Below, in pieces: positions 6,845 through 36,925 of a DNA stretch of 50,365 nt; position 1 is the stretch's first letter; each line of letters starts with the position of its first letter. The notes under the pieces were generated by a model, which did not search any database, was not told the origin of the DNA, and worked only from the letters and a program-made list of their open reading frames with translations. Origin of the DNA: a virus; the IMG/VR virus record IMGVR_UViG_3300015360_000062, positions 1-50,365 of that record; one strand, written 5' to 3'. The position numbers and the translations under genes were made by a program.

Positions 6845-7855
6845 ATGAATATGTTTAACGGAAGAGGCGAGATGAATGCCTCATCACTAAAAGATGCATT
6901 ACAAATTATCACAAAGTATGCAGCGGTATTAGAAGAGAACACTCCATCAAATATGGGACTTGCTGGTCAAGTATCTCTATCTGATGACAAGCGTGATGAG
7001 CTTATCTCTCGCGCCATCATGACCCAAGACGGCAAGATTGCTTTAGCTCAAGCTATGGCAAACCCAATCCGTAGAAACTTGGATTACCATGGAATTGCAC
7101 GTAGAGCACTTGTAGTCGATCCTCTTCCACAAGGCGCAATGCCAACCTACGATCGTGATATCGACGTAGCAGCAGTTGTTATCTCAAGCAACGGTACAGG
7201 TCCAGAGTCTAGAGTATTCGGTGATAGAGTAGTTGTTCCAGAGTTTGAAATCTATGCAAACCCAACTGTCCGTATTGCAGAAGTCAAACGTCGTAGATTC
7301 AACGTAATTGATAGAGCTGTACAAAAGGCTCGTCAAGAAATCATGGCTCAAGAAGACGCAAACGTTTTCGCAGCTCTAGATGCAGCTTCAAGTGTTGAAA
7401 ATACACTTACCGACATCGCAGATGCTGGTCTTCTAAAGAGAGATTTAGTTGAAATCAAACAACAAATTGATCGTTGGGACTTAGTAACAACCAAGTACTT
7501 CATGAACATCAATGAGTTCACCGATATCCTTAAATGGGGTTCTGGTGGTGGTCAAGGAACTGGCGGCGGTGAATTCGATCCAGTAACAATGAGAGAAGTT
7601 CTACAAACTGGTCTATACGCCCACATCTGGGGTACAGACATTATGGTAAGCAAGATCGTTCCACCAGGAACCATCTATGGTTGCTCAGATCCAGAGTTCG
7701 TAGGAGTAATGCCAATTCGTCAAGACATTGAAGTATTACCAGCAGACGAGCCAAAGCAATTGAAGCTAGGTTGGGTAGTATCAGAAATCATCGGTATCGC
7801 AATCGTAAACCCAAGGGGTGTTGCAGCCGGTCGTAAATCAGTAGTAATCGAATAA
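6845..7855 (+). CDS. Major capsid protein (HK97-type fold likely)
   Basis: A 336-residue protein forming the head shell. It begins with a helical N-terminal arm (about residues 10-75), passes through a Pro-Gln-Gly-Ala loop near residue 98, and then has the strand and long-helix pattern expected of an HK97 spine helix at about residues 145-175, where a basic stretch containing three consecutive Arg leads into an Asp/Glu-rich helix. A Gly-rich loop lies at about 235-248. There is no sign of a fused protease or long delta domain. Abundant CGT arginine codons and C-ending codons mark it as highly expressed. A ribosome binding site (AGGAGA) is at 6834-6839, and strong terminators flank it. The fold call rests on pattern and context. 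Confidence 0.85.
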   Translation: MNMFNGRGEMNASSLKDALQIITKYAAVLEENTPSNMGLAGQVSLSDDKRDELISRAIMTQDGKIALAQAMANPIRRNLDYHGIARRALVVDPLPQGAMPTYDRDIDVAAVVISSNGTGPESRVFGDRVVVPEFEIYANPTVRIAEVKRRRFNVIDRAVQKARQEIMAQEDANVFAALDAASSVENTLTDIADAGLLKRDLVEIKQQIDRWDLVTTKYFMNINEFTDILKWGSGGGQGTGGGEFDPVTMREVLQTGLYAHIWGTDIMVSKIVPPGTIYGCSDPEFVGVMPIRQDIEVLPADEPKQLKLGWVVSEIIGIAIVNPRGVAAGRKSVVIE

Positions 7856-7877
7856 TTCGGTTCCTGACATAGCATAA

Positions 7878-7914
7878 AAAAGGGGAGGGTCGTAAGACTT
7901 CTCCCCTTTTGCTT
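7878..7914 (+). terminator. Strong rho-independent terminator after the capsid gene
   Basis: A-run plus GGGGAG (7878-7887) pairs with CTCCCC plus T-run (7901-7910); the loop contains a further GTC-GTAA-GAC hairpin. The stem has six consecutive mostly G/C pairs extended by four A-T pairs and runs into the U tract. This should end transcription of the capsid unit. Confidence 0.9.
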
Positions 7915-7978
7915 TTATAAAGCCAAAAGTTACAATAATAAGACATAAGCATATACGAACACAAGCAGAAAGTTCAAA

Positions 7979-8683
7979 ATGAACATAGAGGATATCTTAG
8001 AAATATATAAAACGATTTCTGTCGTTTCTGAAAGAACTTTTTCACGTAAATGTTGTTTAGTCGTAAGATCAAGTCAATTGGAAGCGCATGGTTTAGTAAA
8101 ATGTGCCGAGGCAATAGGATTTAAAAAAGTTGCTTTTGATACCAGAAGAGTAGATCAAGAAGAGCAATATAATCCACGTAGAAATTTACGTAATTATCAT
8201 AGAAGCGAAGCATTCGTATCAGATGATTTATCAGATAAACTAAAACTATTACACAAACTTCAAAATGTTCTATTGAAATTGAAATCAGTTTTTGGAAAAG
8301 ATCCAGACTGGCATGATAGCTATTCTAGGATTCTATTATCTAACATTACTAATGCATTACGTACAAATGAAAATGATGGAGATTACGCAGAAACTCAGCC
8401 TGGTGTCGGCAGCATGGACTATATTAAAGAAATGTTATATTTCAGATATAGATTAACTTATGATGACATTGCAAATTTAACAGATGAAGCTTTAGGTGAT
8501 GCAATATTGCATAAGGATGAAAAGCTAACTAAGAAAGATATGCCTGATAATAGAGATTTAGTTAGAAACTCTGATTCTAATAGAGACCCTTTTATAGATA
8601 AATTTTCTGGTCTTATGGATATTAGAGAAGATATTATAGAACGAGTTATAACTATAACAATTAAAGACAAAAGACAGAGGTAA
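7979..8683 (+). CDS. Unknown protein, possible neck or head-completion protein
   Basis: A 234-residue, charged, mostly helical protein directly after the capsid terminator. The Arg-rich N-terminal third includes a repeated Asn-x-x-Arg pattern near residues 65-75. The region around residues 150-200 is acidic and Asp-rich. No enzyme motif or membrane segment is seen. In tailed phages the genes immediately after the capsid gene often encode head completion, neck or tail terminator proteins, so that is the likeliest class, but this is position-based inference. The next gene starts four bases after the stop and its ribosome binding site lies inside the end of this gene. Confidence 0.72.
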   Translation: MNIEDILEIYKTISVVSERTFSRKCCLVVRSSQLEAHGLVKCAEAIGFKKVAFDTRRVDQEEQYNPRRNLRNYHRSEAFVSDDLSDKLKLLHKLQNVLLKLKSVFGKDPDWHDSYSRILLSNITNALRTNENDGDYAETQPGVGSMDYIKEMLYFRYRLTYDDIANLTDEALGDAILHKDEKLTKKDMPDNRDLVRNSDSNRDPFIDKFSGLMDIREDIIERVITITIKDKRQR

Positions 8684-9308: not shown

Positions 9309-9679
9309 TGTCAGATTCACCAGTATCTATTATATATGATAGTCTAGGTAATCCAATTGGTGTTATATTGGATGGTGTTACCTATAGGTTACAAGTAGAG
9401 GCTAAATTAGCTGCTGGTACTAACACTATTGGTAAAGTAAATCAAGGTGCCCCAGGAGATACTGCTTGGCCAGTTAATTTTGCTCCAGCAATTCTTAAAG
9501 AAGTTTATGATATAGGTGATACTGTAATATATGTGGGTTCAGCCGTGTTAGGAACACTTACTTCAGCGGCGGCATGGCGAATTAAAAGAACATATTTGGT
9601 TGGTGGAAATCCAACTATTACGCAGTGGACATCTAGTACTGCTGTTTGGGATAATCGAGCTACGGAAACTTTTGAATAA
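9308..9679 (+). CDS. Small beta-rich virion-associated protein
   Basis: A 123-residue beta-rich protein. The N-terminus has an Ile-x-Tyr-Asp-x-x-Gly-Asn-Pro-Ile pattern followed by Gly-Val-Thr-Tyr-Arg-Leu, the type of short strand-turn-strand start seen in phage appendage proteins. It has one-base overlaps (TAATG) with both the preceding and following genes, which strongly suggests co-translation with the 1082-residue fibre-like protein that follows. It may be an adaptor or a capping partner for that protein. No known family is assigned. Confidence 0.72.
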   Translation: MSDSPVSIIYDSLGNPIGVILDGVTYRLQVEAKLAAGTNTIGKVNQGAPGDTAWPVNFAPAILKEVYDIGDTVIYVGSAVLGTLTSAAAWRIKRTYLVGGNPTITQWTSSTAVWDNRATETFE

Positions 9680-12600
9680 TGGCAACTTATACTATTACTA
9701 CAGCAGTTAATATTGATACTTTAGCAACTAAAGTAGGGTCCGATACCTATAATATCAACGGAGGTTATCTTACAGTCGATCAGGATACTCGTTTTGGAAC
9801 AAACCAAAATACCAGCGCTGCTATGGGTAACATTACATTGTCAGCTACTTTAGGTGGTACTATAGAATTCAACTCTACTCTTATAAGAATAATTCCATAC
9901 AATACTGGTACTGGTAACGTGCCAGCGTATGATACTGTAATTTCTCAGGGGGCGGCGAGCGGAAAACTTTTAGGAGTTTATTCTACTTTAGGCGCTGCTC
10001 CAACAGCCGTTGCAGCAGCTATGCCTGCAACAGGGTTTATTAAAATAAGACAATGGAATAGCATTGCTTATTCTTCTGGAGCTTTAACTGGCATTAGCGC
10101 TTCAGCAACAGACGTTGACCGTGCAGGATGGCTGGAAATTGTTGGAGTTAATGCTTTAACTTGCACAGTAAATAGATTGAATCTATTTAAAGCTCGTGGA
10201 GATTGGTTTGATCTTGGCACTACTGATGGTACAAGGGCTACTACGTATCAAATACCTAGTAATGGTGCTATAGCGTATCTTCCTGGCGTATGGGTCGAAA
10301 CAGGTACGGCAACAAATATTTATGAATTCTATCCATGTGCAGGATCATTGACAGCTCTAGCTGCCAATATTGCTACCGATGAAATTAGAGGTAGATTTTG
10401 CTGGATATCAACAGAAGGATTACTTAGATTTGGTCATGATGGAACTAATTTAACTGGTGGATTTATTCCACAATCTGGTAGAAAAGTTAGAATACCTAAT
10501 ATATTTTTTATGTGTTGTACTGCTGCTGGACCAACAGTTAATGTTTTGCCAAATGCCACGCTTGCAACTAGATATGAATTTTCAACAATAGGTGGCGGTG
10601 TTATTGATATAGATAAGGCTTCTATTGATTGGTATATGAATATCAATCAGCCGTATTCTGTAGCTCTTACAAATACGGGTATTTTAACATCTCTTGTATG
10701 TACTGAAATAGCGTCTCCAATAGCATGGAGTCATGTTGGTGTTGGTCAGGAAGCGGCTAATACACAATTTGCTTTATCGATGTCACTTAATTTCGCTGGC
10801 GGCACTATGGATAGTTGTGTCTGGTCTCGTGCAACATTGGCTACAACAGGAAACTATGTTAATACGTATACTGATAATTCTGGCTTTGCTATAACAAATG
10901 AACGCACACATGCTTTAGGTGGTGTTAGAGGTAATGCCAATACTGGAGCACAAAATTTAGTTCGTGCTATTAGTTGTACTTGGACAAACACTACTATCGG
11001 TGGTGGTCGTATATTTATTACTACATGCACAGATGTATCATTTACAGATAGTATATATTATGATCATCCTGCTACAACAACACCAGTAACTATGCCTATG
11101 TATATGTTTGATATTTCTTCAAGCTGTCTGAGAGTTAAATTTGATGGCATTACTTTTGGAGGATTGGCGCTTGTTCAACCGTACAGCGGTATTTTGAATA
11201 TCAGTGCTGCTGGGTGTACTGATATTAAACTTAGAAATCTTGGAACATATGCTTCGCCACTTAATCTTGGTGGTACTCAAGAAAATAACGTTGCTTGGTC
11301 AAGGGCAACTACAACTGCAACTGTGACTAAAATAGCTCATGGATTAAAAGTTAATGATATTATTTATGTGTTAATATCATCAAATGTTGCTGCGATTGTT
11401 GTAGGAACTAAAACTGTGGCAACAGTTCCAACTGCTGACACATTTACATTTACATCTTTAAATGCCGGCGCAGCATCAGGAACATTAACATATTATCCAA
11501 CAATGTCTGCAAATTTATTTGTTTTAGCATCGGCAGCAGCGGCAAATACTGTAAATATAAAAAGATGTTATACTACAGGTACTAGGACAAATCTTTATAC
11601 CGCAGATAACTCTAGTAAGAATATTATATTAGAAAATGTCTATGGTGATTTTGTAGGAATACCACTAACGCGTCAACTAAATGGATATTTGAAAGGGGTG
11701 GGCAGTACACCTTCTTTAGCTGTTCAAACATCTTGTTACGGAACCCATTGGTTTGATGCCTTTACAGCAAAACCTACTACAAATACAGTAACAGTTGCTT
11801 GGACAAGATCAACTACTGTAGCAACAATTACATCTACTACACATAATTTACGTACTGGTTTATTTATTAACGTTAGTCAAACTAGTGATGCTGCTGCAAT
11901 TGTACTTGGGCAAAAAACAATTACTGCCACTACTACTAATGAATTTACGTTTACATGTTTAAATGCAGGCGCCGCATCTGGAACATTAACATTTGTACCA
12001 TTAACTGGTCGTATTGGTTTATTAATGAATGAATCAACGTCTGATACGGCTTCCCAATATACTGTTGATGCTGGTGCAACAGCGTTTACGAGCGCTGGTG
12101 GTTTATATATGCCTAATGTTAACGATCAAATAACATTCATATCACCAAATTATATTATTGGTCACACTGATTTTCCAATAGCGGAAGCTGTAATGGCAGG
12201 TGGCACTATAGCAAACTATACAATAACATATGCTATTGATAAAAATAATGGATCTGGATATTCATCATTCAATAATTTGTATTATACAAGGGTTGGCGGT
12301 GGTGGCAGCAATGCTTCAACAACTGTAACAATGACAAGTACTACAGGCGTAGCTGCAAATGATTATATATTTGGAACAAATATAGCTCCAAATGCTAAGG
12401 TTGTATCAATTGATAGCGCCATCAACGTAACTGTAAATATTGCAAATACAGGAGTTGTTTCTGGTATTCTTAGATTTAATCAATTACCATCAGAGACAAG
12501 TATCGACTCTCAACTTGGATTCAAGTTGAAAGTTAGAATACTTACTGCTACTGCTAACGTTACAGCGATTACATCATTATTTGCATATACCAATAGTACT

Positions 12601-12927
12601 GATACATCTAGAGCTTATCAGTATTCATTAGAAACAGTATCGCTGTCTATTACTGTAAAAAATACGCTTGGTGTAGCTATACAGAATGCCAGAGTTGCTA
12701 TTTATAACAGCGATGATAATTCAGAGTTGTTAAATGTTATAACTAATGCTAGTGGAATTGCTTCTGGAACAACTTCATTCACATCAAATCAAAATATTTA
12801 TATTAGAGTTCGTAAAACAACCACAGGATCAACTAGATATTTCAATAATGATTCATCTGGAACTATTTTATCTTCTGGATTTACATCAACTGTAACTTTA
12901 CTTACAGATACAATTGCCGCGTCATAA
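9679..12927 (+). CDS. Large fibre/appendage protein with duplicated domain
   Basis: A 1082-residue, Thr/Ser/Gly/Ala-rich, all-beta protein, typical of phage fibres or head/neck appendages. Residues 536-608 and 702-774 are two copies of one domain: both have an Ala-Trp-[ST]-Arg start, a His-Gly/Asn-Leu turn and end in the shared string LNAGAASGTLT. The C-terminal part (about 985-1060) looks like an Ig-like or carboxypeptidase-regulatory-like module (Val-x-Asn-x-x-Gly-x-x-Ile-x-x-Ala-x-Val, then Ser-Gly-Ile-Ala-Ser-Gly). Its ATG overlaps the previous stop. It is probably an outer virion protein that contacts the host or environment; where on the virion it sits cannot be told. Confidence 0.75.
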   Translation: MATYTITTAVNIDTLATKVGSDTYNINGGYLTVDQDTRFGTNQNTSAAMGNITLSATLGGTIEFNSTLIRIIPYNTGTGNVPAYDTVISQGAASGKLLGVYSTLGAAPTAVAAAMPATGFIKIRQWNSIAYSSGALTGISASATDVDRAGWLEIVGVNALTCTVNRLNLFKARGDWFDLGTTDGTRATTYQIPSNGAIAYLPGVWVETGTATNIYEFYPCAGSLTALAANIATDEIRGRFCWISTEGLLRFGHDGTNLTGGFIPQSGRKVRIPNIFFMCCTAAGPTVNVLPNATLATRYEFSTIGGGVIDIDKASIDWYMNINQPYSVALTNTGILTSLVCTEIASPIAWSHVGVGQEAANTQFALSMSLNFAGGTMDSCVWSRATLATTGNYVNTYTDNSGFAITNERTHALGGVRGNANTGAQNLVRAISCTWTNTTIGGGRIFITTCTDVSFTDSIYYDHPATTTPVTMPMYMFDISSSCLRVKFDGITFGGLALVQPYSGILNISAAGCTDIKLRNLGTYASPLNLGGTQENNVAWSRATTTATVTKIAHGLKVNDIIYVLISSNVAAIVVGTKTVATVPTADTFTFTSLNAGAASGTLTYYPTMSANLFVLASAAAANTVNIKRCYTTGTRTNLYTADNSSKNIILENVYGDFVGIPLTRQLNGYLKGVGSTPSLAVQTSCYGTHWFDAFTAKPTTNTVTVAWTRSTTVATITSTTHNLRTGLFINVSQTSDAAAIVLGQKTITATTTNEFTFTCLNAGAASGTLTFVPLTGRIGLLMNESTSDTASQYTVDAGATAFTSAGGLYMPNVNDQITFISPNYIIGHTDFPIAEAVMAGGTIANYTITYAIDKNNGSGYSSFNNLYYTRVGGGGSNASTTVTMTSTTGVAANDYIFGTNIAPNAKVVSIDSAINVTVNIANTGVVSGILRFNQLPSETSIDSQLGFKLKVRILTATANVTAITSLFAYTNSTDTSRAYQYSLETVSLSITVKNTLGVAIQNARVAIYNSDDNSELLNVITNASGIASGTTSFTSNQNIYIRVRKTTTGSTRYFNNDSSGTILSSGFTSTVTLLTDTIAAS
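11284..12000 (+). repeat. Two copies of a ~73-residue domain in the fibre gene
   Basis: Copies lie at 11284-11502 and 11782-12000. The protein copies share the Ala-Trp-x-Arg start, a Val-x-Gly-x-Lys-Thr middle and an 11-residue identical end. The DNA has diverged at synonymous positions, so the duplication is old or maintained by selection. Confidence 0.8.
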
Positions 12928-12989: not shown

Positions 12990-15419
12990 ATGTCTGATAC
13001 AATTCTTGGTGGTGATTTTACAGTTTATTATTTGGCAGAAAATCGCCAAAAACGTATTGTATGGACTGGTTCCGCTACTGGCACCAGAACAACTAACCAA
13101 TTATATTCTACTTTAGCTGATTTGCTAGATGAACTAAATCAGATGGATGATGGTTCGGCAATTAGTGCCCAGACACCAACAGAATATACAATAGGTATTA
13201 TTGATCCATCAGATAAAGATCCATGGTTCATTGATAGAACTACCGTTGAGCATCTTGTTGGTGGCGCTCTTAAGACAAATGGATGGTTAAGAGCTACAAC
13301 TACAAATACTGGTGTAGTAAGAATTACTTATACTATTGGAACAGATTTTATTACAGGAGATATTGGTAAAACTGTAACAAATGCAACAAGCGGTGCTACT
13401 GGAACATTATTAGATTTTGCAACATCTAACTCGGTTAAATATGCATGGATTAGACCAACATCATTTGCTGCGGGTAATGATTGGGGCGGTACATCAGGTA
13501 CTATTACAGTAACATCAGGTTCAGTTGCAAGCGTAACTCAAGATACTGCCGCAGTTTCTGGTGAAATGTTATGGGCTAATATTTATAATACAGGAATTGC
13601 CACACTAGTAGCTAATACAGATCAATATGTTTATCAAAATGGATTAAACCTTGCAGCTTACAAGGGCACATTCTCTTGGTGGGCAAGTGGTACATTTGAT
13701 ATTTTAATTCCTGTTCAAGATATGGGTACTCTTATTGACGGTGGATTCATTACAGTTTTCGCAAGACAATCAAATCAGACGTACGCCCAATTCACATCAG
13801 GACTATCTGCTGGTGGTCGTAACCCTATCCCTCTACAAACCGGAACAGATCTTAACAATACTCTTATAGGTTATAACACATTCACATCTACTGCTGGAAC
13901 TGGCACATTTGTTGTTGGTGAAATTATTTATACTCCTGCGGCAGGCGCCTTAAGTGCTGCTACAGCTAAAGGTATAATAACAGCAGTTACAGGATCTCCA
14001 GGTACGACACCAACTTTAACATATTACTTGATTGGTGATTTAACTAATTTTGTTAATACAAATACTATTAAAGGTAATACATCTGATGCAACATGTACTT
14101 CAGCGGCACCAACAGCTACTGCAATAACTACATATACTGCAACTATAACTCATGCTAATGATACCAGCCAAGATATCAATGAAAATGGATCTGCGGAACC
14201 ATACTCAATTGCAATTGATTTAGTAAGTACATATTCAGTTCTACAAGGTTACCAATATACTCAATTTTTAACCCGTCGTGGCGGTACAACTACCGTCAAA
14301 ACTGATGGCATTGAAGGAGAGAGATATATTGGGTCTGATTATCGTATGACATATACTACGCTTACTGGTACAGTTGCTGAAGGGGCGACTGTTACTGGCT
14401 TAACAAGTTCAGCGAGCGGTACGGTTGTAGCTCATCATACCGTATTGAAAATATTAGTATTACGTAATTCTCGTGGTACATTTACAAATGGTGAAACCGT
14501 TCAGGTTTCTGGTGGTAACAATGTTTCGGCAGTAGTGCCAACAGCTATTACTCCAATTGGTGCTGCGCCATTTGGTATTTTTGCCGGAGGTACATGGTTC
14601 GCTGCGCCAGGTGTTGTTCTTAATAATTATCTTACTAGTGATGTTAACAAATTCCAACTTACAGATGATACTGGGGCGACTGTTACAGCACCTACGAAAG
14701 TTACCGTGCAGGTTTCTAATACAAGATTAGCTGATCGTGTCGCTGTATTTAGATTGGTAGTTGCTGGTGGTATTATAGATAAAAGTGAGTATCTTGGAAC
14801 TGCTCAATCAGCAGGGGCTACTACATTAGTTGCAGGCAGTGCAATAACAAATGATACTCCAGGTAAAACTAGTGGCGGAATTGTTCGTTTAGTAGATGTA
14901 AGCGCTACTACTGAATATAGATTAAGATATAATAGTTATGCATCTGCAACCTTCACATTAGCATCTCGTACAGGATTAACCGCTGATGGCGGTTCGAGTT
15001 CAACTCTTTTGGTTGATGCTGGAGCCACGTTTATTACATGGGGTATAAAAATTGGTGACTTGATAAGAAATACTACTGAGTCAGTTATAGCTTATGTTTC
15101 ATCTGTTGATTCTGAAACTCAATTAACAACAACAACAATTGGAAATTGGACTGGTGATTCGTATGAAATAAATACATTGCCAGTAGCTACAACGACATCA
15201 GATACAATCTATGTTCCAATTATAGATAGTTATGAAACTGTTGGAACCGGCGGTGCTCCTGGTGATGAAGCCGTAAGCGTAACATACCTTGCTAACGTAC
15301 CTGTTTTAGTTAGAGCTAGAAAAGCTGGAACTATTCTACCATTTGAAACAGAATCAACTATTACAAGCGGTGGAATGAATGTAAGCGTAATTCGTACCGC
15401 AGATTCAATCTTCACCTAA
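12990..15419 (+). CDS. Large beta-rich virion protein
   Basis: An 809-residue, Thr/Gly/Ala/Val-rich protein of all-beta appearance, with TGGAG (12979-12983) six bases before the ATG. The first 100 residues are less repetitive and may be the assembly domain; an Asp-Pro-x-Asp-Lys-Asp-Pro-Trp-Phe motif lies near residue 73. From about 105 on, a degenerate unit recurs at least three times (near 115-150, 300-350 and 455-510): a strand, a Gly-x-x-Val/Ile turn, then Ser-Gly/Ala-x-Gly-Thr. This unit resembles short beta modules common in phage structural proteins. It is a likely outer virion or fibre component, unplaced. Confidence 0.73.
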   Translation: MSDTILGGDFTVYYLAENRQKRIVWTGSATGTRTTNQLYSTLADLLDELNQMDDGSAISAQTPTEYTIGIIDPSDKDPWFIDRTTVEHLVGGALKTNGWLRATTTNTGVVRITYTIGTDFITGDIGKTVTNATSGATGTLLDFATSNSVKYAWIRPTSFAAGNDWGGTSGTITVTSGSVASVTQDTAAVSGEMLWANIYNTGIATLVANTDQYVYQNGLNLAAYKGTFSWWASGTFDILIPVQDMGTLIDGGFITVFARQSNQTYAQFTSGLSAGGRNPIPLQTGTDLNNTLIGYNTFTSTAGTGTFVVGEIIYTPAAGALSAATAKGIITAVTGSPGTTPTLTYYLIGDLTNFVNTNTIKGNTSDATCTSAAPTATAITTYTATITHANDTSQDINENGSAEPYSIAIDLVSTYSVLQGYQYTQFLTRRGGTTTVKTDGIEGERYIGSDYRMTYTTLTGTVAEGATVTGLTSSASGTVVAHHTVLKILVLRNSRGTFTNGETVQVSGGNNVSAVVPTAITPIGAAPFGIFAGGTWFAAPGVVLNNYLTSDVNKFQLTDDTGATVTAPTKVTVQVSNTRLADRVAVFRLVVAGGIIDKSEYLGTAQSAGATTLVAGSAITNDTPGKTSGGIVRLVDVSATTEYRLRYNSYASATFTLASRTGLTADGGSSSTLLVDAGATFITWGIKIGDLIRNTTESVIAYVSSVDSETQLTTTTIGNWTGDSYEINTLPVATTTSDTIYVPIIDSYETVGTGGAPGDEAVSVTYLANVPVLVRARKAGTILPFETESTITSGGMNVSVIRTADSIFT

Positions 15420-15595: not shown

Positions 15596-15963
15596 ACGAC
15601 ATAGAAAAAGAAGCATTAAAGTATGATCTGGTTTCTTTAATTGGTTTACAGGAAAGAAGAAAACAAAATGTACTTATATTTGAGCAATCTATAAAGAATG
15701 AAAGGGCTGCTTGTCAACAAGAAGAAACCGCTCAATCATTTCTTGAACAGAAATTACGTCAACATGATCTTAATCTTAATAAATTAACGGATACAGATAA
15801 GGAATTAATTCTATCTGATTTACCTAAGTTAAAATCTACTTATGAAAAACGTAATCAAACTATAATGCTTTTAAAGACTGCTATTCTAGAAGAGTATGAA
15901 GCTATGGATCATGAAGAGAAGATGATTCGATTCTTGGAGAAAACAAATGGCAGTAAGAAATGA
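15592..15963 (+). CDS. Small coiled-coil protein
   Basis: A 123-residue protein that is almost wholly charged helix, with Leu/Ile spacing suited to a coiled coil at about residues 1-115. It has one Cys near residue 39 and no membrane segment. Its start overlaps the preceding 51-residue gene (ATGA), and its end overlaps the next gene by 17 bases. This tight packing suggests it is made together with the beta-helix protein that follows. A trimerisation or chaperone partner for that fibre is a reasonable guess, but no family was recognised. Confidence 0.7.
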   Translation: MNDIEKEALKYDLVSLIGLQERRKQNVLIFEQSIKNERAACQQEETAQSFLEQKLRQHDLNLNKLTDTDKELILSDLPKLKSTYEKRNQTIMLLKTAILEEYEAMDHEEKMIRFLEKTNGSKK

Positions 15964-17500
15964 TGTTAGAGTTGATTGGTCACAAAGCCCGCGTTTAATA
16001 TTTATAGCTGCACCATCAGTTACTATTTCTATTCAAGATCTTGTAGATACGTTACGTGTTTTAGAGGAAGATTTGGTAGATGGATTAGCCAATAGTCAAA
16101 TTATTGCTGCCGCTGGAAAAGAAAACTTGGGTGGAGGTGTATCTGTAGGTATCACTGCAAAATTACTCAATGCAAGAATAGCTTTTGAGTCTAGAAAAAA
16201 TAGTACAGAATCAGGATCCATAACTACTTTAGATATTAACGGCGTAACCATTAACGATACGTCTGCAACATTTATAAGTAATGGTGTTGTTCCTGGTTCA
16301 TGGGTAGTTAATTTAACAGACGGATCTAGAGCAACGATTTTAAAGGTAGTATCTGAAACTCAACTTATAACTGATGGACTTGGCGATGGTACAGATAATA
16401 AATTTGAAATCTCTGATGTTTATGAAATACAAAATGTTATACAATGTGATATAAATGGAGGAAATATTGTTGCTGTAGGAGCTGATGGAGTATCAGTTCT
16501 ATCACCTATATTACCAACAATGGGCACTCAAGCAGTAAAAACTGCTTCATCTAGTGCTACTATTAACGATCAGCAACTTCAAACTCAACAAAAGTATCTT
16601 ATTGAAAGTCTTCGTAAAGATCATCAAGCAAGTGGTGAAATTTTCTATTGGAATCCATTAACTGGAAGTGATTCCAATTCTGGAGAATTGCCAGAATTAC
16701 CAAGAGCTACATTTGCTAGCATTCATGATAATTTGATAGTTAGTGGGCGTGGTGATGTTGTATTTATTGTAGCAAATAGTGGTGGAACAGGAATTACTAT
16801 ATCAGAAAGATTATCAATTAGTAAACATTCTGTATTCTTAAGGGCTCCTGGCAATACTAAATTCATACCATCCACAACAACAGGTCCAACAATTACTATA
16901 ACTGGCAATAACGTATCTTTGTCTGGTGTTTCTGTTTATAATATTGGTGGCGGTCATCCAGCTATAAGAGCTAATGGTGGTAACTTTAGAATGGAGAGTT
17001 CTCAAGTTATTACATCTACTGGTAATGGGTTAGAGATATTAGGTGGATCAGCTAATTTTATAGAACGTGTACTTATTAGAGGTTGTGCTGGTAATGGTAT
17101 TCTAGTTAAAGATACTACTTTAACTAATATAGAGAGTAGTATAATAAGAGATAATGTAGGATATGGGGTCAAATATGAAGCTACGTCACTTGGCTCATGC
17201 GCTATTTCATTATTGGATTATGGTGTTTGTCAAAATAATACAACTGGCGGTGTAAGTATAGGTGATGGAGTAGTATCTACTACTATTACAGATAGATTTT
17301 ATATAGCACTAAATGCAGAACAACCAATACGTATAAGTAATCTTGGCATTTATACTGATGAAAATGAAAAAAATGTTATTGACAGAAATGTAGATGCAAT
17401 ATGGGATGAACTAAAATCAACCCATACTACACCTGGATCTATAGGTAATGACTTGGCTACATCAAAAAATGTTATAGCAGCAAGTATAGTATTCAAATAA
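15947..17500 (+). CDS. Right-handed beta-helix tail spike/fibre protein
   Basis: A 517-residue protein. The N-terminal third (to about 210) is mixed helix and strand and probably anchors it to the virion. At about residues 232-255 is the pattern Tyr-Trp-Asn-Pro-x-x-Gly-Ser-Asp-Ser-Asn-Ser-Gly followed by Pro-Arg-Ala-Thr-Phe, which in pectate-lyase-like proteins marks entry into a right-handed beta-helix. Residues about 260-450 show the coil repeats (Ile-x-Ile-x-Gly-Asn-Asn-Val; Gly-Asn-Gly-Ile-x-Val). Such proteins act as receptor-binding spikes, sometimes cutting polysaccharide; no catalytic residues can be assigned. The end overlaps the opposite-strand CCA gene by eight bases. Confidence 0.75.
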   Translation: MAVRNDVRVDWSQSPRLIFIAAPSVTISIQDLVDTLRVLEEDLVDGLANSQIIAAAGKENLGGGVSVGITAKLLNARIAFESRKNSTESGSITTLDINGVTINDTSATFISNGVVPGSWVVNLTDGSRATILKVVSETQLITDGLGDGTDNKFEISDVYEIQNVIQCDINGGNIVAVGADGVSVLSPILPTMGTQAVKTASSSATINDQQLQTQQKYLIESLRKDHQASGEIFYWNPLTGSDSNSGELPELPRATFASIHDNLIVSGRGDVVFIVANSGGTGITISERLSISKHSVFLRAPGNTKFIPSTTTGPTITITGNNVSLSGVSVYNIGGGHPAIRANGGNFRMESSQVITSTGNGLEILGGSANFIERVLIRGCAGNGILVKDTTLTNIESSIIRDNVGYGVKYEATSLGSCAISLLDYGVCQNNTTGGVSIGDGVVSTTITDRFYIALNAEQPIRISNLGIYTDENEKNVIDRNVDAIWDELKSTHTTPGSIGNDLATSKNVIAASIVFK

Positions 17501-18713
17501 ATGACTTAGATAGTTCTAATAAATAATTTAAATTATTGCAAGAGGGTTCATTGATGATTGTTTTATAGCAGTCGTCAAGAGCCTTTTTTAGTTTTGGTCC
17601 CGGAGTAAACCCTATAGCCATCAAATAATTTCCATTGATTGCCATTTCTTTTCTAGAGAAGGCAGTATGCGCTTCACTGTCAGTAAATTGTAGTTCACAA
17701 TCCATTGCATCTAATAGATAAATGAATTGATCAAAAGTTTCTTTCCAGCCATCTCCAGTATTTTTAATAATAGAAACGAACTTCCTATATTCCAATGGAG
17801 ATTGATCATAAGATTCTTCAAAATTATTGAACAATTCATGTAGAAAGATAACCATGTTAATTTCTTTTGTTGAGAATTTCAATGATTTCATTTCAGAATC
17901 AATTTCTTCTTTAGTAGCATTTCTATATAAGAAAGCTAATCTTGTTTCTAGGTTACCTGAGCATCTTGCCTGATCTAACAAATAAGAACCACCACAATAT
18001 TGTACTAATAAAGGTGTCGCCACTATTAATGCCCTAGAATTAAGCATGGCAAGTAATCCAATTTGAGGATTTTTTGTCATAAGAGTTTTACAAAGCTCAT
18101 CTTTTATACGCTCTTTAGATACTTTTGTAAGAGTAGCTATGCTATTTTTCATTGAATGAAATGTATTCAATTCAATATGATAGTTGAATCTGGCTGAAAA
18201 CCTAGCGGCTCTCATTATTCTTAAACCATCTTCTTTGAAACGTTCATCAGCATTACCTACAGCTTTAATGATGGAACTATTAATATCATCAATACCTCCA
18301 AATGGATCGACTAATCGATCTGTTAATGGATCATAAGCTATTGCATTAATAGTTAAATCACGACGAGATAAATCTTCTTCAACATTAGTAACGAAGAAAA
18401 CTTCTTCGGGTCTTCTTCCATCTTTATATTCTCCTTCAACTCTAAAAGTCGTTACTTCAAAGGTATTTTGTATACCTTCACCTAGAGATACAGTTATTGT
18501 TCCGTGTTGAAGTCCAGTAGGATATGTTTTTGGGAAGATAGCAATTACTTGTTCTGGTGTAGCGCTTGTGGTTATGTCCCAATCTTTAGGTGTTTGACCT
18601 AAAATTAGGTCACGCACACAACCACCAACGATAAATGCTTGATGACCATGCTCGGTTAGTATTTGACAAACTTGTAAAGCACCTGGATTAACTTGGTCTT
18701 TTGTAATATTCAT
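17493..18713 (-). CDS. cca: CCA-adding tRNA nucleotidyltransferase (class II)
   Basis: A 406-residue enzyme of the class II nucleotidyltransferase family, which adds or repairs the 3' CCA end of tRNAs using CTP and ATP. All main motifs are present: GGCVRD at 30-35, the metal-binding DWD at 44-46, RRDLTINA at 117-124, DPFGG at 136-140 and EDGLRIMRAARFSARF at 161-176. A PGPKL element near 371-375 belongs to the C-terminal body/tail helices. The length is normal for bacterial enzymes, so it looks intact. Poly(A) polymerase I shares the core, but the overall motif set reads as CCA-adding. It is on the minus strand, tail-to-tail with a fibre gene, inside the accessory island. No clear ribosome binding site is seen. 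Confidence 0.93.
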   Translation of the reverse strand: MNITKDQVNPGALQVCQILTEHGHQAFIVGGCVRDLILGQTPKDWDITTSATPEQVIAIFPKTYPTGLQHGTITVSLGEGIQNTFEVTTFRVEGEYKDGRRPEEVFFVTNVEEDLSRRDLTINAIAYDPLTDRLVDPFGGIDDINSSIIKAVGNADERFKEDGLRIMRAARFSARFNYHIELNTFHSMKNSIATLTKVSKERIKDELCKTLMTKNPQIGLLAMLNSRALIVATPLLVQYCGGSYLLDQARCSGNLETRLAFLYRNATKEEIDSEMKSLKFSTKEINMVIFLHELFNNFEESYDQSPLEYRKFVSIIKNTGDGWKETFDQFIYLLDAMDCELQFTDSEAHTAFSRKEMAINGNYLMAIGFTPGPKLKKALDDCYKTIINEPSCNNLNYLLELSKSFI

Positions 18714-18801
18714 ACAGGCAATGTAACCACTGTAAATTGGGCGTCAAATATTAAAATTAGATATTGACATGTAATATTCTTACATAATGTAGAGGCAAAT
18801 C

Positions 18802-19149
18802 ATGGTAACACATAACTATTCTGGACTAGGTAAGAGAACGACTGGTAAAGATTTAAATTTTTATGAAAAAATAACTGTAACAAGCACTACATTCGGGGAA
18901 GAAGCCGATGGATATCAGCCGGATGCTTTTATTAGTTTTCATTCAACTTCTCTTATGCTTCTTAATGAGGGTACACTTTTAACCAGCGTTATTGAATATT
19001 CATTCAATGGAAATACGGTACATGGTGAATTAGATCCAACTTTACCAAGTAGAGGTTTAACTTTTGATAATAGGAGAGTATCATCTATTTGGTTTAGAGT
19101 TAAGAGTGGAAGTTCTGGACCAGTAATTGTTCGTGTTGATGCTTGGTAA
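18802..19149 (+). CDS. Small virion-region protein, unknown
   Basis: A 115-residue protein with AGAGG (18791-18795) six bases before the ATG. It is beta-rich and ends in Val-Arg-Val-Asp-Ala-Trp. A Phe-Ile-Ser-Phe sequence and Trp-Phe-Arg-Val near the end give it the look of a small beta-sandwich. It is divergent from the CCA gene across an 88-base gap and is followed after about 100 bases by another small beta-rich gene, so the two may be paired structural components. No family recognised. Confidence 0.68.
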   Translation: MVTHNYSGLGKRTTGKDLNFYEKITVTSTTFGEEADGYQPDAFISFHSTSLMLLNEGTLLTSVIEYSFNGNTVHGELDPTLPSRGLTFDNRRVSSIWFRVKSGSSGPVIVRVDAW

Positions 19150-19251: not shown

Positions 19252-19515
19252 ATGGCAGCAAGAGATGGAAGTTTACAAGTTTTAGGCAATATAGGCAGTA
19301 GTACATTAGCTGGAAAGAAAGACCCAAGAGGAGGCTCTATTATGTTATCAGATAGAGTCGCTACCACCTATTATAGAATGCAGGGATATGATGTAGATAA
19401 CGTTCCTGTTATTGCGCGTTGTTGGACCGTATCAGGCACCCATGACATCACTGGTGCTAAAAGCGGAGTATCTTCGTTTAGTAATATTTCAATATTATTA
19501 TCTTGGACTGTTTAA
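19252..19515 (+). CDS. Small virion-region protein, unknown
   Basis: An 87-residue protein with a clear AAGGAG ribosome binding site (19240-19245) six bases before the ATG. The N-terminal Gly/Ser-rich half includes a Lys-Asp-Pro-Arg-Gly-Gly motif near residue 26; the C-terminal half is beta-like and ends with Ser-Trp-Thr-Val. It may be a small structural or fibre-associated protein like its upstream neighbour. The HNH gene begins at or near its 3' end in the +1 frame, so the homing-type endonuclease may have inserted just downstream of it. Confidence 0.68.
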   Translation: MAARDGSLQVLGNIGSSTLAGKKDPRGGSIMLSDRVATTYYRMQGYDVDNVPVIARCWTVSGTHDITGAKSGVSSFSNISILLSWTV

Positions 19516-19525
19516 TAAATGTAAG

Positions 19526-19876
19526 TTGTACGAGTGCGTTATATGCAAGTATGATATGAAATTAATAAAAAACAAATGTGAAATAGAATCTTGTCAAATT
19601 GACATGCCAGAAGCACTTCACCTACATCATATTATAGAGCGTACGGATATAAATACTACTAATCATGTATATAATTTAGCGATCCTATGTGCTAATTGTC
19701 ATGCAATGACACATAGTGGCAGATTGAAAATTATCGGAGTGTACCCTTCAACAAAACTTCCAAATAAGCGAACATTAATATATGAGCTTGATGGTAAGAG
19801 AAATATTGAGGGGATAGATTACCCATATATAGAATTCAAGAATAAGTCATTCAAGATAAATGGAGAAAGTAAATGA
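19526..19876 (+). CDS. HNH endonuclease, uncertain start
   Basis: From the TTG at 19526 the product is 116 residues. It carries a C-x2-C pair at residues 4 and 7, the His-Leu-His-His core at 32-35, Asn-Leu at 50-51, and C-x2-C-H at 55-59 with a further His at 63, the standard zinc-stabilised HNH layout. HNH proteins nick or cut DNA and in phages are often free-standing homing endonucleases. No ATG lies between the upstream gene's stop and the first zinc Cys. Alternatives are an ATG at 19442 inside the upstream gene or re-initiation after the stop at 19513-19515. Its end overlaps the next start (ATGA). Confidence 0.8.
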   Translation: MYECVICKYDMKLIKNKCEIESCQIDMPEALHLHHIIERTDINTTNHVYNLAILCANCHAMTHSGRLKIIGVYPSTKLPNKRTLIYELDGKRNIEGIDYPYIEFKNKSFKINGESK

Positions 19877-20215: not shown

Positions 20216-20449
20216 ATGAGTAATGCTAAATTCGAAGGTGAAGTATTGTGGTTTGATCCAAAACGTGGATATGGTTTTGTTGATTGGAGTAAAGATGGTG
20301 TAAAGCAAAAAGACTTATTTGTCCATTTTTCGGATGTATCCTGTGAAGGATTCAAAACCTTATATAAGGGACAAAAAGTCTCATTTGGTCTAGGTGTTAA
20401 TAAGCATGGTGATCCAAAGGCTACAGAAGTAACAATTCTTAAAAGCTAA
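20216..20449 (+). CDS. Cold-shock-domain (CspA-like) nucleic-acid-binding protein
   Basis: A 77-residue single-domain protein matching the cold-shock family in length and motifs: RNP1-type KRGYGFVDW at residues 16-24 and RNP2-type DLFVHF at 33-38, with an aromatic Trp at 12. Such proteins bind single-stranded RNA or DNA and melt RNA structure. AGAGG upstream serves as ribosome binding site. A perfect palindrome terminator follows. In a phage it could assist translation of structured late messages or modulate host transcription termination. It differs from host CspA in its Asp-Trp after RNP1 and an insertion near 26-32. Confidence 0.9.
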   Translation: MSNAKFEGEVLWFDPKRGYGFVDWSKDGVKQKDLFVHFSDVSCEGFKTLYKGQKVSFGLGVNKHGDPKATEVTILKS

Positions 20450-34156: not shown

Positions 34157-36925
34157 ATGGCTAACATACCCGGAGCAACAAATATCCTACCAGGCGTTAT
34201 TACCGATGTAGTAACACAATCACGCGGAGTTTCGATCCCTGGTGGTTCCCGTATAGCGGCGATAATCGGAGAAGGCTCTACTGACCAAACTTTAGTTTCA
34301 ACAGCTTCAGGTGGTGGAAAAGACGGATTCGATCCAACGTACGCATCAGCAACTGGTGCTGATGGAAGGCATTTTAGAATTTCTGGCGCTCCATTGGTCG
34401 CTAGAAGAACAACTTTATACAAGAATGGTATTCCATTAGTTGGTTTAGAATCACTAATTGATACAGATCCATTTAGCAAGAAATATGATTATAGGCTTGA
34501 TATTGCTACTGGTAAAATTGAACTTCAAACCGCATACATCTTCGATCAAGGTGGGGCATATTACTTACCACTAACAACAAATGTTGGTGCAGGTACACTT
34601 ACTGGTCTAGAGTTATTAGATGTAAATGCACCAGCAGAAACATGGACCATTAGATGCGTATCTGTTCAAAGAACCGCATTAAATGCACCTATTGCCGGAA
34701 CTGCTAAATTCTTGGCTTTTGGATCTATCTCAGGCGCAAAACTTGATGCTAATGGGAATCCAATTCTTTGGACTGTTGGTGGCGCTGAAGTTGACAATGA
34801 TGTACTTAATTTTGCCATTGCAGAAACTACCCCAGTTTTCAGAGAGGGTGATGCCTTCACTGTAAAAGTAAGAAGTGGCGTTCTAAATAGAAGCGATTCT
34901 TTAACTACAAACTTTATCCCAACATTGACACTTAATGATCCTGTTTTGGTACAAGGTCCAGGTGATACATATGCAAGACACGGATTGCCAAGTGTTGGAA
35001 ATAACTTAAGCTTGGGTGCTCAATTAGCTTTCGCTAACGCAGCTCCAGCATTAGTTACAGTTCAAGCTGCTCCTCCAATGCCAAGAAGAACCTCATATAT
35101 TCTTAACTCATCGGTAGATGCAGATTCTTCGGATTTAAATGAATTTATGTATCCATTACCAGCAGGTGCAACTCCTGACGTAAATGCATCAATTCATTTC
35201 TTCGTTACAAATAATACAACAAATGTTGAAACTCAAATTCTACCAAATAAGTACGAATATTATTTGGTTGGTGAAGGTGGTGGAGAGCCAACTTTTTCAG
35301 AGTTCATTACAGATGACACTGCTGCACCAGCCGGATTTTCTTACTTCTATACAGTAGTTGAGTCTGCTGCAACTATGGAAACAGAAGAAGATGGTTATAT
35401 CGCTAGAGTTCCTAGCACAACCAATCAAGGTATTTTCGAATCTTCAGTAACGTTCGATTTGACTCATGATGGTAAGAATTTAGTAATTACTGGTTCTACC
35501 AATAGCGCAAATGATGGTACTTATTTAATTGATTCAGTATCTAATGGTAATTTATATGTTACTAAAACAACAGCTTTCACTAATTTAGTTAATGGAAGCG
35601 GCATTACTTTTGCAGTAATAGATGTCGAAACAGGAATTGCTGTAACTGAAGATGTAAGTGAAGCAACAGACGGTTACTTAGTATCTCTTGGTTCTGGAAC
35701 TGCAACTTTTGGAAGCTCAATAGTAGTAGATTTCGGAGATCTTGATGGTTATACTGATATACTTACTCGTCGTTTGCTAATTTCTGGTTCAACTACAGGA
35801 AATAATGGTTTATACGATATTACTGCTATCAACATTCCAGCCAATACAATAACAATTGCAAAAGCAATCGTTCAAGAATCTGGTTTAAGATTTGAAGTTA
35901 AAGATACAGATGATGTAGATAATTACGTTGTAGTAAATAAGAATGTTGTTCCAGATAATCATCAACTAAGAGTAACTTTGATTGATACATTAGAAGCAAG
36001 CTTCTATGATGCTGGTTGGATCAATGCTTTAGAATCACTTGAAACAGTTGAATGTGATATCGTTGTACCACTTCCAAAACAAACAATCTCCGTAATATTC
36101 CAAAACGCATTGAATCATTGTAAAGCAATGAGCAATATCCGTAACAAGAAGGAAAGAGTATTATTTGCTGGAGCAATCAATGGATTAACAAGTGCCAATG
36201 TAATCGGAACAGCCGATGCAGCGGTAGAAGATATTGGTGTTCTAGAAGGTATTCAAGGAGAAACAGTTACTGACATTCTTGCAGGAAACGTTGAAGATTT
36301 AGCAAACTACTCAGTATCAGATGCCTTCGGAAATACATTCAGATGTGTATACTTCTACCCTGACCAAATCGTTGTTCAAGCTGGTGCAGAGAACGTCCTA
36401 ATCGATGGTTTCTATATAGCAGCAGCCGCAGCAGGTTACTTGTCAGCAGATACAAGAGTTGAAAACCCACTAACGAATAAGGTCTTGAGTGGTTTTACTA
36501 TTCTAAGAAACAGAACGTTCTCAACTTTGACATTGGAACAATTAGCATCAGCAGGTATTTGTACATTACAACCAGTAACTGGTGGTGGTAGAGTTGTATG
36601 GGGCATTACAACAACTCAAAGTGGATTCCCAGAGGAACAAGAAATCTCTATTGTATTCATTAGAGATAGAGTAGCAAAGAGCTTGAGAGCAGGCTTCGCA
36701 GGATTCATTGGTTTAGCTGAGACCCCAGATACAGGTTCAATATTGAATACTCGTGCTGTAATCTTACTAAACGCCTTAATGTCTCAAGGTTTGATTACAG
36801 ATTATAGGGATCTATCTGTAGCTAGAGACAGCGCTGATCCTCGTCAATGGAATATCGGAGTAAGAGTACAACCTACCTACCCTGTCAATTTCATTTACAT
36901 CAAAGTGGGTCTAGGTCAACTATAA
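34157..36925 (+). CDS. Tail sheath protein, enlarged
   Basis: A 922-residue sheath subunit; these stack around the tube and contract to drive infection. The N-terminus (Pro-Gly-Val-x-Thr-Asp-Val near 12-18) and the C-terminal domain (about 690-922, with Gln-Trp-Asn-Ile-Gly-Val-Arg-Val near 905 and the Ala-Gly-Phe/Phe-Ile-Gly strands near 845-855) match the sheath family core. AAGGA (34146-34150) precedes the ATG. It is longer than typical sheaths (about 350-660 residues) because of inserted beta domains in the middle, including a duplicated one at 429-489 and 520-583. The last third uses C-ending codons more often, consistent with high expression. The tube gene follows after 14 bases. Confidence 0.92.
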   Translation: MANIPGATNILPGVITDVVTQSRGVSIPGGSRIAAIIGEGSTDQTLVSTASGGGKDGFDPTYASATGADGRHFRISGAPLVARRTTLYKNGIPLVGLESLIDTDPFSKKYDYRLDIATGKIELQTAYIFDQGGAYYLPLTTNVGAGTLTGLELLDVNAPAETWTIRCVSVQRTALNAPIAGTAKFLAFGSISGAKLDANGNPILWTVGGAEVDNDVLNFAIAETTPVFREGDAFTVKVRSGVLNRSDSLTTNFIPTLTLNDPVLVQGPGDTYARHGLPSVGNNLSLGAQLAFANAAPALVTVQAAPPMPRRTSYILNSSVDADSSDLNEFMYPLPAGATPDVNASIHFFVTNNTTNVETQILPNKYEYYLVGEGGGEPTFSEFITDDTAAPAGFSYFYTVVESAATMETEEDGYIARVPSTTNQGIFESSVTFDLTHDGKNLVITGSTNSANDGTYLIDSVSNGNLYVTKTTAFTNLVNGSGITFAVIDVETGIAVTEDVSEATDGYLVSLGSGTATFGSSIVVDFGDLDGYTDILTRRLLISGSTTGNNGLYDITAINIPANTITIAKAIVQESGLRFEVKDTDDVDNYVVVNKNVVPDNHQLRVTLIDTLEASFYDAGWINALESLETVECDIVVPLPKQTISVIFQNALNHCKAMSNIRNKKERVLFAGAINGLTSANVIGTADAAVEDIGVLEGIQGETVTDILAGNVEDLANYSVSDAFGNTFRCVYFYPDQIVVQAGAENVLIDGFYIAAAAAGYLSADTRVENPLTNKVLSGFTILRNRTFSTLTLEQLASAGICTLQPVTGGGRVVWGITTTQSGFPEEQEISIVFIRDRVAKSLRAGFAGFIGLAETPDTGSILNTRAVILLNALMSQGLITDYRDLSVARDSADPRQWNIGVRVQPTYPVNFIYIKVGLGQL
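35441..35905 (+). repeat. Duplicated beta domain inserted in the sheath protein
   Basis: Copies at residues 429-489 (35441-35623) and 520-583 (35714-35905). Both have [LV]-[LV]-Ile-[ST]-Gly-Ser-Thr at corresponding positions (442-448 and 540-546), then Asn-x-Gly-x-Tyr-[LD]-Ile, an Ile/Val-x-Lys strand and an ending with Phe-[AE]-Val-[IK]-Asp. They are not part of the conserved sheath core and probably project from the tail surface. Confidence 0.72.

Follow-up and report, generated by a model that had tools for sequence, protein, structure and literature searches.

The window, a 50,365-nucleotide stretch of viral DNA that was analysed over its whole length, encodes a complete class II CCA tRNA nucleotidyltransferase of 406 amino acids within the virion gene block of a huge phage. 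We put the probability at roughly 0.65 that the product is a working CCA-adding enzyme that re-tails damaged or trimmed tRNAs and belongs to a set of RNA-repair and translation-maintenance genes. By this account, a huge tailed phage would make the enzyme from its own promoter, and during infection the enzyme would rebuild CCA ends that had been damaged or trimmed in the pool of phage and host tRNAs, acting within a small phage set of such genes. CCA enzymes are already known from huge and jumbo phages, to which this protein adds another. They are usually passed over as tRNA-maturation genes; the encoded CCA ends and the unusual common promoter described here point to repair.

A complete class II CCA-adding enzyme

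The open reading frame is intact from its ATG start with 0 internal stops, and Pfam and fold matches place the head, RNA-binding (neck) and C-terminal domains all in its product at normal length. Three Pfam domains scored above cutoff (PF01743, 131.7 bits; PF12627, 38.3; PF13735, 43.1), and the NCBIfam equivalog PRK13299.1 (cutoff 290) was passed with 306.6 bits. The five class II motifs that a first-pass annotation had reported are literally found in the translation (GGCVRD at residues 30-35, DWD at 44-46, RRDLTINA at 117-124, DPFGG at 136-140 and EDGLRIMR at 161-168), leaving the head-domain series GGxxRD...DxD, RRDxTxN, DPxxG and EDxxR fully intact. The catalytic residues, whose disruption would have spoken against the annotation, are likewise kept across the family, as the catalytic motifs are present in 48/48 phage homologues, with EDGLR in 47 of the 48. 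For most of the closest pairs among these homologues dN/dS is 0.08-0.13, indicating purifying selection. The open frame, the PRK13299.1 score, the 48 homologues and these dN/dS values together rule out a chance or broken ORF.

The AlphaFold model of the protein has a mean pLDDT of 94.7, and the PDB folds that match it best belong to CCA-adding enzymes, with alignments spanning almost the full chain (6qxn, TM 0.79, 401 alignment columns for 406 residues), in agreement with the annotation of a complete enzyme of normal length. The class II bacterial enzymes of Planococcus halocryophilus (6qxn/6ibp) and Geobacillus (1miv) share with the phage protein the domains, the catalytic motifs, the flexible loop and the fold over the full length, at 27-31% identity by structural alignment. 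As judged from family, motifs and predicted fold, the product would be catalytically active. Its best PHROG match is the tRNA nucleotidyltransferase family phrog_2244 (224 bits, residues 24-377), and the closest full-length phage records are less than 40% identical to it. The features of the locus are collected in Table 1.

Table 1. Coordinates of the CCA gene, its promoter and the neighbouring features in the window.
Feature	Position	Strand	Remarks
Class II CCA tRNA nucleotidyltransferase, 406 aa, complete	17493..18713	-	Pfam, NCBIfam, fold
ATG start codon of CCA gene	18711..18713	-	
-10 element TACATT	18720..18725	-	16 nt from -35; end 6 nt from ATG
-35 element TTGACG of CCA-gene promoter	18742..18747	-	Conserved in 37/38 homologues
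Major capsid protein	6845..7855	+	In relatives, CCA gene lies downstream of the orthologue, adjoining the 7979 orthologue
Usual CCA-gene site in relatives (capsid gene / 7979-8683 interval)	7856..7978	.	Empty of CCA gene in the window
517-aa virion-region protein	15947..17500	+	Weak beta-helix match; end overlaps CCA stop end tail-to-tail, 8 bp
115-aa gene divergent from CCA gene	18802..19149	+	Bounds the unusual insertion site on the right
Tail sheath	34157..36925		

Setting, distribution and descent of the gene

The window is taken to be a 50 kb fragment of a huge phage because relatives in IMG/VR carry capsid proteins 88-97% identical to its own on contigs of up to 480,838 bases, and because, by capsid, the closest match among cultured phages is Bacillus phage G (53% identity over 84% of the protein). 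Relatives were gathered through capsid and alignment queries; a query of viral contigs with the single protein returned 0 matches, probably because conserved motifs were missing from the search patterns. The major capsid and tail sheath genes flank the CCA locus, which places it in a virion gene block, and the ORF map confirms that it runs opposite to the structural genes, as first annotated. The same annotation spoke of a tail fibre region. The position between capsid and sheath genes bears this out in part, but the fibre identity is weak, since the beta-helix match of the neighbouring 517-aa protein (24.6 bits) falls below the cutoff of 25.9. No known family was matched by the products of 9679-12927 and 12990-15419. 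Near the CCA gene, the block also holds an HNH endonuclease-like ORF at 19412-19876(+) and a cold-shock-type protein at 20216-20449(+).

A CCA enzyme was found in 26 of the 42 relatives searched, at 49-56% identity and with every frame open. In nearly all of those mapped, its gene and the orthologue of 7979-8683 are arranged head-to-head, with the CCA gene usually directly 3' of the capsid gene; a few relatives (e.g. L076) had no recognisable orthologue beside it. In the window, the gene instead lies about 10 kb from this usual site, between the 517-aa and 115-aa genes, a placement found only here among the relatives mapped. In enzyme-free relatives (e.g. L401, L403, L404) the orthologue of the 517-aa gene directly precedes that of the 115-aa gene. 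The gene may have relocated within the lineage, or may have been lost and then regained from a relative; the two histories are indistinguishable, as neither the structural-gene tree nor the CCA tree places the window firmly.

Presence of the enzyme on the structural-gene tree is patchy and calls for at least 9 gains or losses, from which it follows that the gene has been repeatedly lost or exchanged. A comparison of the protein with bacterial enzymes, as the first-pass annotation had suggested, gave a tree of 160 enzymes in which a branch with support 100 separates all 48 phage-family homologues from the bacterial and other viral enzymes. The phage clade is thus set among bacterial enzymes, from which it differs in its long stem, its length of about 406-430 aa and the adjoining phage virion genes. 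A recent capture from a host is not supported, as the clade is single and deep. This depth, the conserved motifs and the low dN/dS argue for an old phage gene under selection.

A start-abutting promoter common to several genes

A sigma70-like promoter, TTGACA-N16-TAnnnT, lies no more than 15 nt from the start codon in 37 of 38 unique CCA loci, and in 29 of these 37 the site ends 6-7 nt before the start codon. The pattern was first spotted by eye upstream of the CCA genes and then counted in the same sequences, where shuffling yielded a mean of 4.4 sites and a maximum of 9. All promoter shuffles preserved base composition only (over whole upstream stretches or blocks of 100-200 bases) and not dinucleotides, and the counts are not fully independent because several of the tested genomes are related. 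The gene in the window keeps this promoter despite its unusual placement, and among window ORFs of at least 60 aa it is the only one with the arrangement. No Shine-Dalgarno-like sequence was found just upstream of its ATG. With a -10 element ending 6-7 nt before the ATG, the promoter geometry predicts a leaderless mRNA whose 5' end would coincide with the start codon or adjoin it. The promoter would probably be read by host RNA polymerase.

A strict genome scan of enzyme-bearing relatives found 12 start-abutting sites, which belonged to genes for peptidyl-tRNA hydrolase PTH2 (four), RNA ligase (three), the CCA enzyme (two), and NADAR, FGE-like and kinase-like proteins (one each). The same scan over 1.16 Mb of enzyme-free relatives found 1 such site, and shuffles gave 0-1. 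In a wider sample of viral contigs, the strict-scan genomes among them, the promoter lay against the start codon in 15/21 PTH2 loci (shuffled, 0.2) and in 8/11 loci of the same RNA ligase family (shuffled, 0.1), compared with 0/14 for distant RNA ligases. These two genes provide the more independent test, the pattern having been spotted by eye upstream of CCA genes. Genes for EF-Ts and thioredoxin carry the same promoter class, here followed by a leader of some 15-25 nt, and that for a Ro60-like (Ro60/TROVE) protein in G026 carries it with a 66-nt leader. As the enzyme-free clade shows no excess of promoter-class sites, the class is a property of the lineage and not of the CCA gene alone. The huge phages with this promoter class upstream of EF-Ts are L113, L176 and L199 (and L192 and L207). 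In G026, the PTH2 frame (L448, G026:89722-90144) contains one in-frame TGA.

Possession of a common promoter is evidence, at the sequence level, that the CCA enzyme, PTH2, RNA ligase and NADAR may form a regulatory set. More tentatively, the huge phages of this family could use host-type promoters to run a dedicated regulon for tRNA repair and translation maintenance. It would comprise the CCA enzyme, PTH2, RNA ligase and EF-Ts, with NADAR and Ro60 in some, its core repair genes would be leaderless, and it would sustain translation while host defences cut tRNAs, including the CCA tail. A search of the open-access literature did not turn up any description of such a regulon. The common promoter offers a handle for listing more genes of the set in huge phages that have not been cultured.

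tRNA ends and the role of the enzyme

Both ARAGORN and Rfam found 0 tRNA genes in the window, confirming the earlier impression that none is visible. Among 17 large family records searched, 10 hold 29-65 tRNA genes, and the other 7, all partial records of 114-204 kb, hold 0-8. To score encoded CCA, ARAGORN was run on fetched stretches of relatives and the three bases after the discriminator were read. In seven enzyme-bearing relatives, CCA is encoded in 284 of 302 tRNA genes (94%; 81-98% per genome). In the enzyme-free records (n = 4, of which two represent one virus or nearly identical ones), it is encoded in 106/154 (46-87%), a contrast that counts as one comparison because all the large enzyme-free genomes belong to a single clade. 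The high encoded fraction in the enzyme-bearing relatives holds without this contrast.

These counts bear on the suggestion of the first-pass annotation that such phages mature their own tRNAs. That the enzyme chiefly serves phage tRNAs lacking an encoded CCA would fit the many tRNA genes of most large enzyme-bearing relatives, the 18/302 tRNAs that would need addition, several with a CUA anticodon, and the low encoded fraction in three other enzyme-bearing phages (1/24, 0/10 and 10/24). In further enzyme-bearing groups, though, the fraction is high (27/29, 8/8, 51/53 and 30/33). The scan for CCA-less tRNA genes that had been proposed, carried out in the relatives, thus finds some, but too few for this to be the main job when 94% of the family's tRNA genes already encode CCA. 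In addition, CCA-less genes are commoner in the enzyme-free clade (48/154), the reverse of what a maturation role predicts. We therefore consider maturation an improbable main function and infer that the chief substrate is damaged tRNA and not CCA-less precursors. CUA-anticodon (amber) tRNAs occur in most relatives (G024-G026, G032, G034, G036, G037, G019, G043), several without encoded CCA, and are possible suppressor tRNAs.

Repair of tRNA ends, the other role first suggested, is favoured because the distinctive promoter of the CCA gene is found also on PTH2, RNA ligase and, with a leader, EF-Ts, although both the tRNA counts and the partner-gene promoters come from relatives, the window itself contributing only the CCA gene. 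Against repair stand the 18/302 tRNAs without CCA, the patchy distribution of the gene and the single clade behind the enzyme-free contrast. It also counts against repair that bacterial hosts normally own a CCA enzyme. A repair role for the phage enzyme has already been proposed in a jumbo-phage review (PMC7824862), and a huge-phage study places the enzyme among translation genes (PMC7162821). As far as the accessible portions of these two reports and of that on XacN1 ORF446 (PMC5852040) go, they likewise describe a full phage-encoded CCA enzyme in tRNA-rich huge phages and give its presence and a proposed role, to which we add counts of tRNA ends and a start-abutting promoter common to PTH2 and RNA ligase.

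Counter-defence is a plausible purpose of the CCA gene. Cas12a3, reported in 2026, blocks phage by removing the CCA tails of tRNAs; according to its authors, resistance would require of viruses some means not yet known (PMC12851939), for which the family described here provides named, testable candidates. The promoter is also common to PTH2, RNA ligase and NADAR, which the jumbo-phage review groups with the CCA enzyme as RNA-repair and conflict functions (PMC7824862). That the gene is specifically a counter-defence, re-tailing tRNAs after immune nucleases of the host, Cas12a3 for example, have cut them at the CCA end, nevertheless seems unlikely, as the presence of EF-Ts and thioredoxin in the promoter set suggests general translation upkeep. 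Cas12a3 can also remove the discriminator base (ACCA product), which goes beyond repair by this enzyme alone, and it is active in E. coli, a host that already possesses a Cca enzyme. General re-tailing of damaged tRNAs thus remains our preferred reading. RtcB was considered as a common repair partner and rejected, having been found among 16 records searched only in two enzyme-free relatives (G032:8546-9850 and G036:363250-364554).

Finally, it is very unlikely that the product is a poly(A) polymerase or adds only CC or only A: poly(A) polymerases share its superfamily and pcnB models also match it (187 bits), but these PcnB scores fall below cutoff (187.2 vs 305.65 and 115.1 vs 702 bits), as does that of the A-adding tRNA nucleotidyltransferase model NF041569.1 (58.6 bits against 1440), the flexible loop between motifs A and B, whose loss or shortening marks CC-adding enzymes, aligns to Geobacillus 1miv without gaps and is not shortened, and the best folds for the model are those of CCA-adding enzymes.

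The idea that enzyme-free relatives lack any related protein was considered and proved wrong. A second protein of about 257 aa, with the PolyA_pol head domain only, is encoded at L108:1441-2211 (G025:229258-229887) and equivalent positions in most large relatives, tens of kb from the capsid gene, and occurs in 4/4 large enzyme-free records as well as in most enzyme-bearing ones. The E. coli type of CCA enzyme carries an HD domain. Two divergent viral CCA enzymes (L358:3929-6058 and L360:351-2546) carry a fused HD domain at the C terminus as well as a tRNA_NucTran2_2 segment that is repeated, and by analogy these HD-domain fusions may lend some support to repair.
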